Of a stretch of 46,040 nt of DNA, positions 3,141 to 8,329 are shown piece by piece; positions within the stretch are counted from its first letter, which is position 1; each line of letters begins with the position of its first letter. Below the pieces are notes generated by a model. It saw nothing but the letters and a program-made list of their open reading frames with translations, was not told the origin of the DNA and did no database searches. The position numbers and the translations under genes are program-made. The DNA comes from Defluviitaleaceae bacterium. Lineage in GTDB: Bacteria > Bacillota > Clostridia > Lachnospirales > UBA5962. The stretch spans positions 1-46,040 of the forward strand of contig WRGD01000147.1 in the NCBI GenBank assembly GCA_009787355.1, read 5' to 3'.

Positions 3141-3659
3141 ATGAAAAAAAGGCTTTTTGCCAGCGGATTTATTGCCGGTTGCTTACTGTTGCTCACAGGA
3201 TGCCACGGATATGGCTTTTATGAAACCGATGGCGACGTGCAAAGTGTCTACCTATTTTACTACGACAACCCAGATGTTCCCTTAGTCAGGCATATTTTGT
3301 GGCAACCCAGACGTGAAGATTTCGCCTTCTACCGAATGTTCCCTTTGAACACTGTGAGGCAATTGCCGCCTGAGCAAATCCCCGATTTGGTAGAAGCCAT
3401 TTCTGGGAGTGAGTTTTTTCATACTATGGGTCAAAGCAGTGGACCCGACGGCTGGGTCATCATGGTTCACTATGAAGATGGGAGTTTTGACATTTTATCA
3501 CAGAGATTTGTGGGACACTACACGAAGGAAGGGGAATTCGTCCGCTATTTTGGTAGGGGGGATACATCATTTCGGGGTGATTCTCAAGGCATGTTCGCCA
3601 CTTGGGTCGAACAATTTTTCGATTTAATTATAGAGGAGGGATATGATGGACTACATTGA
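3141..3659 (+). CDS. Lipoprotein of foreign composition
   Basis: A 172-residue secreted lipoprotein: Lys-Lys-Arg N-terminus, hydrophobic stretch, lipobox LLTGC with the lipidated Cys at residue 21. The mature part is rich in Trp, Tyr, Phe and Asp/Glu and matches no family I know. A good AGAGGAG site precedes the ATG. Two sampled 60-base lines inside the gene are 47% and 52% G+C, far above the neighbours, and codon choice (GCC, CCC, GAC, GGC) is unlike the rest of the window. This indicates recent acquisition from a higher-GC Firmicute. It overlaps a second, truncated foreign ORF. Function unknown; it sits just upstream of the walR promoter but is probably unrelated to it. Confidence 0.75.
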   Translation: MKKRLFASGFIAGCLLLLTGCHGYGFYETDGDVQSVYLFYYDNPDVPLVRHILWQPRREDFAFYRMFPLNTVRQLPPEQIPDLVEAISGSEFFHTMGQSSGPDGWVIMVHYEDGSFDILSQRFVGHYTKEGEFVRYFGRGDTSFRGDSQGMFATWVEQFFDLIIEEGYDGLH

Positions 3660-3753
3660 CAGGGTAGACGAACATTGGGACAACGTGCCAGACTTGGACT
3701 TGCTAGATTTAGCACTCTATTTTCATTACGAAATACACTTATATAAATTATAA
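3643..3753 (+). pseudogene. Truncated ORF downstream of the foreign lipoprotein
   Basis: A 36-codon ORF with a strong GAGGAGGG ribosome binding site (3633-3640) whose start overlaps the lipoprotein gene by 17 nt. The first two thirds (MMDYIDRVDEHWDNVP and following Asp/Leu residues) have the same higher G+C as the lipoprotein. The last third drifts into local AT-rich sequence and ends in TAA exactly where direct repeat copy B begins. This looks like the 5' end of a longer gene from the same donor, cut at the island boundary. Confidence 0.5.
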
Positions 3754-3820
3754 AAAATTAAATTTATATTACAATCTCGAGATTTTCAATTGTATTAAAT
3801 TTTTAAATGTATTATAATAT
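3753..3820 (+). repeat. Direct repeat copy B (promoter-bearing)
   Basis: Ungapped partner of 2506-2573 (58 of 68 bases identical). It begins at the stop codon of the truncated foreign ORF and ends at the -10 element in front of walR. Confidence 0.85.
3790..3818 (+). promoter_or_regulatory. Promoter of the walR operon
   Basis: TTGTAT (3790-3795), 17-base spacer, TATAAT (3813-3818). This is followed by a leader of about 115 nt to the walR ATG at 3941. Both hexamers match those in front of the Dps-like gene. Confidence 0.65.
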
Positions 3821-3940
3821 CTATTAGTAGTTTTTTAATTAGGCAAATCTTTTGATAAAGATTTTATACATATCGTAATGAAAATATATAAAATTTTGGT
3901 TACGTAAAAAAGTAAATAAATACAAGAGGTAATAAATATA

Positions 3941-4636
3941 ATGATACTAATAGTCGAAGATGAAAAAGCAATATCTGATATTTTAGCATTTAATTTGAAA
4001 AAAGAGGGTTACAAGGTACATTGTGAATATGATGGTATAGCTGGTTATAATTATGCAGTAGAAAAAAATCCCGACCTTATACTTTTAGACATAATGATTC
4101 CAAAAATGGATGGTTTTACATTTTGCAAAAGATTTAGAAAAACAAGTCAAACACCAATAATAATGCTAACAGCAAGAAGTGAAGAAGCAGATAAAGTTCT
4201 TGGGCTTGATATAGGTGCAGATGATTATGTAACAAAACCTTTTGGAATGCGTGAGCTACTTGCAAGAGTAAAAGCGAATCTTAGAAAAACAAAAATAGAC
4301 GAAGAAGAAAACGGCGATTTTATGAATATAGAAGATTTAACTTTAGACTTCAAAAAATTTATAATAATCAAAGGAGACAAAACTGTAATTCTTACAACAA
4401 GAGAGTTCGAACTTATTACTTTTTTGGCAAAAGAGAGAGGCAAAATATTTTCACGTGAGCAACTACTAAAAAAAGTATGGGGATATGAATATTTTGGAGA
4501 TGCAAGAACAGTAGATGTAACGATAAGAAGAATAAGAACAAAACTAGAAGATGAACCAAATGCACCAAAATATGTTTTAACAAAACGTGGAGTTGGTTAT
4601 TTTTTTGTAGATAAAAATAAAAATGAAGGACAGTAA
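3941..4636 (+). CDS. walR: WalR/YycF response regulator
   Basis: A 231-residue OmpR/PhoB-family response regulator. The receiver domain (1-115) has the acidic pair E6-D7, phosphoacceptor D50 in LLLDIMIP, switch T77 and K99. A winged-helix DNA-binding domain (about 130-228) ends with RGVGYFF. A general OmpR regulator is assigned to WalR because the downstream genes are a WalK-type kinase, YycH and YycI, the canonical set. WalR controls peptidoglycan hydrolase and cell-wall metabolism genes and is essential in many low-GC Gram-positives. A GAGGT-type ribosome binding site precedes the ATG. The usual next gene, walK, is displaced by 1.3 kb because a PARP gene lies between. Confidence 0.9.
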   Translation: MILIVEDEKAISDILAFNLKKEGYKVHCEYDGIAGYNYAVEKNPDLILLDIMIPKMDGFTFCKRFRKTSQTPIIMLTARSEEADKVLGLDIGADDYVTKPFGMRELLARVKANLRKTKIDEEENGDFMNIEDLTLDFKKFIIIKGDKTVILTTREFELITFLAKERGKIFSREQLLKKVWGYEYFGDARTVDVTIRRIRTKLEDEPNAPKYVLTKRGVGYFFVDKNKNEGQ

Positions 4637-4638
4637 TA

Positions 4639-5943
4639 TTGAACACCCCAATACATTTAATTATGATAAACCCCAATACATCTGGTGGAAAAGGAAACAA
4701 TAAATTTTACGATATGATTCCACAGGGTGAGATGTTAATAGTAAGATACGGAAGAATTTTTCCAAATTATAATTTTGGAGAAAGTGGAGCTGTTATTAGA
4801 TACCATATAAGCGAATTTGAAAGACTTAAAAATGGTAAAATAAAAAAGGGATATAACGACATGTCCTATTTAATACAAGAAAAAATAAATAAGATGGAGG
4901 AAGAAAAAAAGGATAATCTTGTTTCTACCCTAAAGCCGACTTCTGTACACAGCACAGAGGTTATAGATGTTTTAAAAAGATTATATGACTTTAGTTTGAA
5001 AAATGTAATAAGAATATATGGAAGAGAAATACAAATAACACCTACACAAAAAGAAAAAGCACAGGAATATTTGAATTTTCTTTCTATGAAATATATAAAC
5101 GAAGAAACAAAATTACAAAAACCTAGAAAAGAAAAATTTAATGAATCGCTGATAGAACTTTTTAAAGTTATACCAAGAAGTATGAACAATGTTGGGGAGT
5201 GGCTTGCAACAAACAAGCAAGATTTTAACAGAATTATAGAACGAGAGCAAAATTTATTAGATTCTTTTGATATAATACAAATAAACAATACAGATAACAA
5301 AGTTATAGAAGATAAAAAAATACATACACCAATTTCGTTATTTGGTTTTGATATTCATTATGCAAGCCTAGATAATAGACAAATAGTATCAGAAAAATTG
5401 AAAGATACCAATTTAAAAGTTTTAAATGTTTTTAAAATTACAACTCCAAAATCTAAAGAAAATTTTGAAAATTTTTTAGAAAAAGAAAATTTAGGAAAAA
5501 AAGAAGTAAATTTATTTTGGCATGGTAGTAGGTCGGAAAATATTTTAAGCATAATGAAACAAGGTTTTTTAATAAGACCTACAAATGCTGTTCATAATGG
5601 TTCTATGTTTGGAGATGGTATATATTTAGCAAATGATGTTATTAAAAGTTTAAATTATACTTCTATAGAAAACAGTTATTGGGCAAAAGGTGAGTACCCA
5701 ACAGGGTTTTTAATACTTGTACAAGCTGCAACAGGTGGTTTCGACAGGGCAAAAACAGTTTACGAATTTAAGCCTGAGTATTATAGATTAAACAAAGATA
5801 ATCTTGGTAATAATCAAAAAGGAAAAAGAAATTTGTACTTATATGCAAGTAGTAAAAAAGGTATGTTAAGAAAAGATGAAATAGTATTTTATAACACAAA
5901 TCAAGTAAATCCTTATTTACTTGTAGAGGTAAAAAGAGAATAA
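4639..5943 (+). CDS. Poly(ADP-ribose) polymerase, WGR-HD-ART type
   Basis: A 434-residue cytoplasmic PARP. Order: WGR-like domain (about 22-80; FYDMI, RYGRI with Tyr replacing Trp, KKGYNDMSYL); helical regulatory domain (about 105-215); ADP-ribosyltransferase catalytic domain (about 230-434). The catalytic H-Y-E triad is intact: H295 in FWHGSRSENI, Y329 in GSMFGDGIYLAN, E414 in KDEIVFYNTNQVNPYLL, which lines up with the human PARP1 catalytic Glu region. Such enzymes transfer ADP-ribose from NAD+ to proteins or DNA ends, usually triggered by DNA breaks sensed through WGR. Start TTG at 4639 lies 2 nt after walR with AAGGA upstream; the stop is 4 nt before walK. The gene is thus embedded in the walRK operon. 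Base composition matches the neighbours. No macrodomain or glycohydrolase gene is in the window. Confidence 0.88.
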   Translation: MNTPIHLIMINPNTSGGKGNNKFYDMIPQGEMLIVRYGRIFPNYNFGESGAVIRYHISEFERLKNGKIKKGYNDMSYLIQEKINKMEEEKKDNLVSTLKPTSVHSTEVIDVLKRLYDFSLKNVIRIYGREIQITPTQKEKAQEYLNFLSMKYINEETKLQKPRKEKFNESLIELFKVIPRSMNNVGEWLATNKQDFNRIIEREQNLLDSFDIIQINNTDNKVIEDKKIHTPISLFGFDIHYASLDNRQIVSEKLKDTNLKVLNVFKITTPKSKENFENFLEKENLGKKEVNLFWHGSRSENILSIMKQGFLIRPTNAVHNGSMFGDGIYLANDVIKSLNYTSIENSYWAKGEYPTGFLILVQAATGGFDRAKTVYEFKPEYYRLNKDNLGNNQKGKRNLYLYASSKKGMLRKDEIVFYNTNQVNPYLLVEVKRE

Positions 5944-5947
5944 TAGT

Positions 5948-7660
5948 ATGCATAAAACTATAAAATTTAAACTAGTATTTCTTTTTCTAACTTTAGTTCT
6001 TATTGTAATGATAAGCACTGGTATTTTTTTAAGATTTAATATACAAAATTCTGAATCTAGACGCATATATGAAGAACTAAGTCTTTTTGCAAATATGATA
6101 AATTCTGAAATAATACAGGTATTTAAAGAACAAGAATATATAGAAAGAGAATTAAGAACTCAAATATTTACCACAAGACCAGATATAAATATTATTATTT
6201 TAGATTCTTCTGGTAGAAATTTTTCAGGTGAATATTTTAGCTCTTCTGTAATAATATCTGCAATGACTGGTGTGTCAAGTTTTAACCCATGGGAACGTGC
6301 AGTAGACCAAATAGGAGAATTTGGTCGTACTGCAACATGGATGAGTTATGCAGTACCAGTATATGTATCCGATACTGGAAAATCTTTTATAATATACCTT
6401 AGACAGAATGTAACAACTCTTATGGAGAGTTTAGAAAATACAACTATTACAATCATTATTTCTATAATTATAGCTATGTTGTTGTCTGCTATTTTAGGCA
6501 TTTTTTTCTCAAGAACACTTACAGAACCAATCAGCATTTTAACCAAAATATCAAAAGAAATAGCAAAAGGAAATTTCGACCAAAATATTCCTATTTTTAG
6601 TGATGATGAAATTGGGCAACTTTCAGAAAGTTTTAATAAAATGTCGAAAAATTTACAAACAACACTTAAAAATATAGAGATAGAAAAAAACAAAATAGAA
6701 ATAATAGTAAATTCTATATCTGATGGAATAATTGCTTTCGATAATACAGGAAAATTGGTGCATGCAAATAATACAGCAATAGAAATTATAGGCATGGAAA
6801 ATATGTATTATGATTATATATTAAAATTAATAAGAAACAGTGAAAATGATTCACTAGATACTTTTAAAATAAATGATATGTTTATAAAAATAAATACTAA
6901 AACATATAATAATAAAGAGGGTTATGTAGATGGAACTGTAATATCTATGCAGGATGTTACAAAGCATATGAAACTAGATAATATGCGTAAAGAATTTGTA
7001 GCAAATGTAAGCCATGAAATAAGAACACCGCTAACAGTTATAAAAACATATACAGAAACTATAATTGATATGGAAGAAGATGAAATGAAAAAGAGTTTCT
7101 TAAATACAATTAATTCTGAAGTGGATAGAATGACAATACTTACATCGGATTTGCTAGAATTATCTCATTTTGATAATAAACAGTTAAAAATAAATAATGC
7201 AAAACAAAATTTAATAGATATATTAAAAAATGCTATAAAATACACAAAAATATCTGCAGAAAAAAAATCTCAAAAAATAATACTAAAAACTGATATAGAC
7301 AAAATAGAATATTTTTGCGATGTAATAAGAATAAATCAAGTTTTTGTAAACATCATATCTAATGCTATAAAATATAGTAAAGAAAATACTGAAATAAATA
7401 TACTAGTTAAGAAAAATGGAAATTATTACGATATATATATATGCGACAAAGGAATAGGAATAAAAAAAGATGATATAGATAGAATATTTGAAAGATTCTA
7501 CAGAGTAGACAAATCTAGAAGCAGAAACGTAGGAAGTACAGGATTAGGACTTTCAATTGTAAAAGAGATACTAGATATTTATAATGGTAAAATAAATGTA
7601 GATAGTACACCAAACGTAGGCACAAAAGTTATTATATCATTCCCTCTGCAATTTATGTGA
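5948..7660 (+). CDS. walK: WalK/YycG sensor histidine kinase
   Basis: A 570-residue membrane kinase with the full WalK layout: TM1 (about 9-29), extracytoplasmic PAS-like sensor (about 35-160), TM2 (about 164-187), HAMP (188-240), cytoplasmic PAS (about 250-340), HisKA with H356 in ANVSHEIRTP, and HATPase with an N box (NIISNAIKYS), G1 (DKGIGI) and G2 (GSTGLGLS). It senses cell-wall status and phosphorylates WalR. ATG is 4 nt after the PARP stop with only a weak ribosome binding site, suggesting that its translation depends on upstream PARP translation. Length and domain content are typical of the family. Confidence 0.9.
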   Translation: MHKTIKFKLVFLFLTLVLIVMISTGIFLRFNIQNSESRRIYEELSLFANMINSEIIQVFKEQEYIERELRTQIFTTRPDINIIILDSSGRNFSGEYFSSSVIISAMTGVSSFNPWERAVDQIGEFGRTATWMSYAVPVYVSDTGKSFIIYLRQNVTTLMESLENTTITIIISIIIAMLLSAILGIFFSRTLTEPISILTKISKEIAKGNFDQNIPIFSDDEIGQLSESFNKMSKNLQTTLKNIEIEKNKIEIIVNSISDGIIAFDNTGKLVHANNTAIEIIGMENMYYDYILKLIRNSENDSLDTFKINDMFIKINTKTYNNKEGYVDGTVISMQDVTKHMKLDNMRKEFVANVSHEIRTPLTVIKTYTETIIDMEEDEMKKSFLNTINSEVDRMTILTSDLLELSHFDNKQLKINNAKQNLIDILKNAIKYTKISAEKKSQKIILKTDIDKIEYFCDVIRINQVFVNIISNAIKYSKENTEINILVKKNGNYYDIYICDKGIGIKKDDIDRIFERFYRVDKSRSRNVGSTGLGLSIVKEILDIYNGKINVDSTPNVGTKVIISFPLQFM

Positions 7661-7756: not shown

Positions 7757-8329
7757 ATGAAAAAAATCTTTGTGTTTTTATCTTTTTTTACATTAATGTT
7801 TACAACAAATATATATGCAAACAACTTTAGAATAACAGGTGGTTTAGAAAATTCTGTTTTTTTAGATTTACAAACGATAACTCCAAAAGTTAATATTAAT
7901 AATTTTGATGAAGATAATTTCGATTTAATCGATATATATGAAGATTCAGAATCAAGATTTTCTTTTGACAGTTTTTTGCAAAACTTAGAATTTGATGATT
8001 TTTTTAGCACACTATTTGTAGAAACAACATTTGACGAAATTAGGACAATAACAGGAACAGCAAATAGTGGAACAACAATTACTGTGTTTTTGTTAAATTC
8101 AAATGAAAATAATATATTATTAGTACATGAAGAAAGTGTTAATGTTGGACCATCTGAAGTATTTAGTTTTGAATTGCTAGTACCACTTGGAGAAAATGTT
8201 GTTTTTATTTTGTTTGAAGATACTAATGGAGAATTTGTAAAAGTAGCAGCAATGCGTAAAATGTCTTCAGATATTAAACAAGATATTTTCGAATTTACTC
8301 CAAGATTTCCTGGTACAGAAACAAGATAG
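7757..8329 (+). CDS. Secreted protein of unknown function in wal operon
   Basis: A 190-residue protein with a signal peptide (MKKIFVFLSFFTLMFTTNIYA, cleavage probably after Ala21). An acidic Asp/Phe-rich middle region follows (about 50-90). The C-terminal half has the rhythm of a beta-sandwich (ITGTANSGTTITVFLL and a later FSFELLVPLGENVVFILF), similar to Big/Ig-like extracellular domains. AAGGAGGG precedes the ATG. It lies between walK and yycH, where the usual operon has no gene, after a 96-nt gap that contains TATAAT at 7711. It may be an exported ligand or accessory factor for WalK or YycH. No family recognised. Confidence 0.7.
   Translation: MKKIFVFLSFFTLMFTTNIYANNFRITGGLENSVFLDLQTITPKVNINNFDEDNFDLIDIYEDSESRFSFDSFLQNLEFDDFFSTLFVETTFDEIRTITGTANSGTTITVFLLNSNENNILLVHEESVNVGPSEVFSFELLVPLGENVVFILFEDTNGEFVKVAAMRKMSSDIKQDIFEFTPRFPGTETR

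Follow-up and report, generated by a model that had tools for sequence, protein, structure and literature searches.

A divergent WGR-PARP gene lies between the walR- and walK-like genes of a Defluviitaleaceae bacterium

PARP is an enzyme that signals DNA damage and is best known from animals. Among bacterial PARPs, HaPARP and CdPARP have been reported to be active, and horizontal gain has been proposed as the origin (PMC5966428, PMC4245714). A helical domain without a PARP_reg match has been reported for the bacterial PARP clade of Cytophagales and Clostridiales (PMC5966428), and the cellular roles of bacterial PARPs have been described as unknown (PMC4245714). DarTG is a known writer-eraser pair, in which the macrodomain of DarG is structurally closest to TARG1 (PMC5179494). 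The walRKHI genes of S. aureus form a single transcript with a gap of 12 bp between walR and walK, and the corresponding gap in Listeria measures 184 bp (PMC4801191).

The locus examined here lies in a 46,040-nucleotide stretch of Defluviitaleaceae DNA (hereafter the window). The original prediction placed a complete PARP gene inside the walRK operon, and the coordinates bear this out. The gene begins 2 nt after the walR-like gene (4637-4638) and ends 4 nt before the walK-like gene (5944-5947), with all three genes on the + strand (Table 1). The proposed domain composition of the 434-aa protein (WGR-like, helical and PARP catalytic) is likewise upheld by its PF00644 match, WGR motifs and AlphaFold model, and the intactness of H295-Y329-E414 by the invariance of these residues in alignments of 14 and 33 sequences.

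Table 1. Features of the PARP gene and its flanking walRK-type operon (window coordinates)
Feature	Position	Strand	Evidence
walR-like gene for an OmpR/PhoB-type response regulator with intact receiver and DNA-binding domains	3941..4636	+	Pfam Response_reg, Trans_reg_C; NCBIfam YycF
Shine-Dalgarno GAAGGA of PARP, within the last walR codons	4625..4630	+	duplex energy scan, sequence
PARP (WGR-helical-ART) gene, 434 aa	4639..5943	+	PF00644, PDB phmmer, AlphaFold/Foldseek
WGR domain, about residues 1-92, approximate boundary	4639..4914	+	sub-threshold Pfam WGR; NNKFY, YGR and KGY motifs; beta-rich model
Helical (regulatory-like) domain, about residues 104-240, approximate boundary	4948..5358	+	model helices
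ART catalytic domain, residues 256-432	5404..5934	+	Pfam, alignment, sequence
Catalytic H295	5521-5523	+	codon CAT at 5521
Catalytic Y329	5623-5625	+	codon TAT at 5623
Catalytic E414	5878-5880	+	codon GAA at 5878
walK-like sensor kinase (HAMP, PAS, HisKA, HATPase)	5948..7660	+	Pfam; NCBIfam WalK
190-aa protein 3' of walK	7757..8329	+	tblastn matches in family loci L004, L005, L008
walH-position protein, 427 aa	8341..9624	+	tblastn in five relatives
walI-position protein, 275 aa	9642..10469	+	position only

The PARP frame opens with TTG. This start is favoured because a Shine-Dalgarno sequence lies in the 3' end of walR, whereas an alternative ATG at 4663 has none in the duplex energy scan. No terminator was predicted between walR and walK, and promoter-like matches are present within the genes of this stretch. 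Given the lack of a predicted terminator and the 4-nt gap, walK is plausibly expressed via the PARP cistron, with an internal promoter as a possible other route. Codon use of the PARP gene (0.351) is host-like beside walR (0.366) and walK (0.362). Hence, the gene is either old in this host or came from an equally AT-rich donor, two histories that the codon match cannot separate. A search for direct repeats flanking the gene or a target-site duplication revealed none. At its 5' end, the gene carries a 12-nt exact direct repeat, ACCCCAATACAT, at 4645-4656 and 4670-4681 (spacing 25 nt).

Pfam assigns the protein to PF00644 with a score of 85.6 bits (E 4.3e-24), where the cut-off is 26.7, and a phmmer search of the PDB matches it to PARP1 (E 1.5e-12). 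The Pfam WGR score is sub-threshold (17.6 against a cut-off of 22). The NNKFY, YGR and KGY motifs nonetheless align with those of 32 relatives, 14 of 17 strongly conserved WGR columns are retained, and the AlphaFold model (pLDDT 83, pTM 0.81) has a beta-rich N-terminal domain. The model further shows helices at residues 106-127, 135-157, 164-177 and 193-218, and Pfam PARP_reg did not match this helical domain. Among solved structures, Foldseek returned human PARP1 and PARP2 on DNA breaks as the best matches, and the best viral model was a phage ADP-ribosyltransferase (TM 0.83). The alignments show that the residues of the NAD/nicotinamide site are kept (H295, G296, Y329, S337, Y340 and E414). 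The catalytic residues persist although 22 of the 56 strongly conserved columns of the catalytic domain have changed; these changes, together with a long branch in the trees, could reflect relaxed constraint or loss of activity.

The flanking genes define a walRK-type operon. The best NCBIfam model of the walR-like protein is YycF (306.9 bits, equivalog cut-off 340) and that of the walK-like protein is WalK (383.7 bits, cut-off 725). Both scores fall under the equivalog cut-offs, so best match, architecture and synteny are the grounds for calling the pair walRK-type. The walR-like protein is 59-70% identical to WalR of six family genomes, and the walK-like protein is the sole match at E <= 1e-60 within its own genome. 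Inspection by eye shows an intact phospho-acceptor Asp in WalR and intact H, N and G boxes in WalK. Downstream of walK, the walH-position gene is conserved in five family relatives by tblastn. Its product has no Pfam YycH or other convincing Pfam family and no PDB match, and family searches with the walI-position protein gave no match; Pfam and PDB provided no basis for naming these two genes walH and walI. Neighbours elsewhere in the window are ordinary chromosomal genes (MutS-like, SpoIIP, RtcB and, by eye, Rnf-like), for which reason a plasmid or prophage location was rejected. Just 5' of walR, a 172-aa lipoprotein-like ORF (3141-3659) has a G+C content of 45% and a third-position GC of 0.47, where the corresponding values around it are about 25-30%. 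On composition, this ORF is possibly a recent foreign gene.

The layout itself looks private to the source genome, whose genus is represented by one genome. In all six of the other family genomes sampled, each from another genus, walR and walK are adjacent, and none of these genomes has a PARP. In the closest family member (L003, G006), the walR-walK gap is 155 nt; walK is followed there by a convergent peptidase-U32-like gene (by eye), with no walH-position gene nearby. The order, the class and the phylum were each sampled at about 390 genomes, with overlap between the samples, and profile searches of these revealed no other full-length PARP. A first search of genome contigs with the single PARP protein gave no match, and a 14-row PARP alignment was too diverse for profile scans. 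The window PARP is the only PF00644 match in its own genome. Weak PF00644 matches in eight other members of the order are short and partial and fall below the full-length profile, and were therefore rejected as full PARPs. In about 110 related loci, no WalR or WalK orthologue lies beside the PARP, and the open-access literature searched yielded no paper joining walRK with ADP-ribosylation in one operon. The view that no such layout had been described therefore holds for the relatives and the literature covered. The accompanying claim that bacterial PARPs are rare stands for the bacterial genomes sampled but does not extend to phages, where 80 viral relatives were found (IMG/VR loci L066-L145).

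Relatives were drawn from annotated phages, megaplasmids, GTDB genomes and IMG/VR, and none exceeds 37% identity to the window PARP. In two trees, with support of 97/98 and 96/98, the protein falls in a clade with PARPs of viral (large-phage) contigs, Anaerofilum, Oscillospiraceae and the Butyrivibrio megaplasmid pCY360, the viral contigs being nearest. Its branch is long (2.5-3.1 changes per column), which leaves its exact place in the trees unsure. The Anaerofilum PARP locus also carries genes for an HNH nuclease, a PemK toxin and a topoisomerase. Near Bacteroidota and phage PARPs, a protein of about 90 aa with a TTLEVK-like motif recurs, alone or as a domain of larger proteins (L045 7267-7563, L049 7255-7518, L058 7206-7484, L033 9602-10051 and about 16 more loci); two members examined had no Pfam family.

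Many of the viral loci share a further element. Of the 77 viral loci from which a PARP was recovered, some of them near-copy contigs, 43 have a TARG1-like macrodomain gene upstream on the same strand, mostly at a distance of 15 nt or less. When the tree is limited to distinct proteins, the gene accompanies 30 of its 67 rows, with several gains or losses. One viral contig among the nearest has, directly 5' of its PARP, a gene whose product matches human TARG1/OARD1 at E 6e-30. These phage gene pairs constitute a putative writer-eraser cassette, exemplified by L067, with a TARG1/OARD1-like gene at 3541-3978 and a WGR-PARP at 3980-5203. In the L069 and L103 copies, the catalytic region looks altered by eye. 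No TARG1-like gene stands directly 5' of the window PARP, where walR is found, or elsewhere in the window. Searches of the window genome, which is 96% complete, detected no Macro, TARG1-like, microbial PARG or ARH gene. This absence is likely rather than proven, because a positive control was lacking for the PARG and TARG1 searches. DarTG identity was rejected, since Pfam gives PARP and not DarT (DUF4433) and the genome has no Macro match.

Taken together, the evidence makes it reasonably probable that a phage-type PARP was captured, became ameliorated to its host, is active and is co-expressed with the walRK-type operon. A WGR-PARP of phage or mobile-element type would have been acquired horizontally and become the second cistron of the operon (walR-PARP-walK-...-walH-like). 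Transcription would probably start from the walR promoter, and translation from the ribosome-binding site lying in walR. The enzyme would then work like other bacterial PARPs: the WGR domain would detect nicks or breaks in DNA, relief of the helical domain would follow, and NAD+ would be used to ADP-ribosylate the protein itself and nearby molecules. This reading names neither WalR nor WalK as a target. Its place in the operon would provide steady expression in step with essential genes. The intact gene, its position and family, its absence from the relatives sampled and its host-like codon use are observed; acquisition, activity, DNA dependence and co-transcription are all steps that we infer. 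Because the PARP is a singleton and is closest to PARPs of phages and mobile elements, its position can be put down to hitch-hiking in a reliably expressed operon just as well as to a functional tie with WalRK.

Alternative readings differ in what they ask of the enzyme; their probabilities are not exclusive and some of them overlap. The PARP could be functionally coupled to its neighbours, modifying WalR, WalK or wall enzymes, or linking DNA damage to wall-growth arrest via WalRK. The precise location of the PARP gene between those of the two partners, the intact catalytic residues and the rapid divergence from relatives with a preserved active site fit such a new role. We nevertheless regard this coupling as unlikely, as the pairing appeared in no second genome among those sampled and in none of the related loci, and operon position in one case is weak evidence. 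A phage-type writer might instead have been kept for defence after parting from its macrodomain: triggered by phage or damaged DNA, it would irreversibly stop the cell or the phage. The frequent upstream TARG1-like gene of the viral relatives and the eraser searches of the host genome are consistent with this scenario. On the other hand, those searches were of limited reach, other erasers may exist and no defence genes were recognised beside the PARP, which renders an orphaned defence writer improbable.

It is similarly improbable that the gene is a neutral passenger on its way to decay, a transferred PARP tolerated because its insertion left walRK unbroken, with weak or no activity. The long branch, the altered catalytic-domain columns and the singleton status would agree with decay. 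Yet the frame is open over 434 codons, the triad and NAD-site residues are complete, the ribosome-binding site is usable and codon use is host-like. An assembly artefact appears highly improbable. The genome is a draft of 152 contigs and its layout was seen in no second genome, but the inserted gene is complete and fits precisely from the walR stop codon to the walK start codon. Its ribosome-binding site falls inside walR, its composition is that of the host, and the surroundings are those of a normal chromosome. A chimera would fuse two pieces and not place one gene scarlessly. The original prediction had named absence from close relatives together with read evidence of misassembly as one ground for abandoning it. 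The layout is indeed absent from the relatives, but a misassembly that inserts an exact, scarless gene is unexpected, and misassembly at the locus was rejected on that basis.

The most far-reaching interpretation is that ADP-ribosylation has become part of the essential two-component system that governs the cell wall, with a DNA-activated PARP made together with WalR and WalK and modifying either of them or their targets. We consider this rather doubtful. If true, DNA damage or phage entry would halt wall growth, with no known eraser in the cell. Position in a walRK-type operon offers a concrete pathway in which the role of a bacterial PARP can be tested. A larger pattern lies in the many large phages with a TARG1-like macrodomain gene directly 5' of the PARP; the two form a putative writer-eraser pair that can be tested for a role in infection.

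Judged by its sequence, the window PARP is a member of the known, horizontally spread WGR-PARPs of bacteria and phages (PMC4245714, PMC5966428, PMC7824862). It shares with the clade-1 bacterial WGR-PARPs of Cytophagales and Clostridiales (PMC5966428) the WGR and ART domains, the helical domain without PARP_reg, the H-Y-E triad and a scattered occurrence for which horizontal gain is proposed, but differs in its divergence and its site in a walRK-type operon. The PARPs of large phages (Cellulophaga phi4:1, Xanthomonas XacN1 and IMG/VR contigs) are homologous to it over all three domains; those of the nearest phage clade usually have a TARG1-like macrodomain gene upstream, where the window has walR. 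Its fold and catalytic triad resemble the catalytic and WGR domains of human PARP1 and PARP2, although identity is about 20% and zinc fingers and BRCT are missing. As in DarTG (PMC5179494), its phage cousins place an ADP-ribosyltransferase beside a TARG1-type macrodomain. They use a WGR-PARP instead of DarT, however, and the macrodomain gene stands first; in the window genome no macrodomain was found. Compared with the walRKHI(J) operon of Bacillota, walR, walK and the walH-position gene keep the same order, whereas a PARP cistron occupies what in relatives is only a short gap. The novelty lies in the place of this PARP; its kind is already known.
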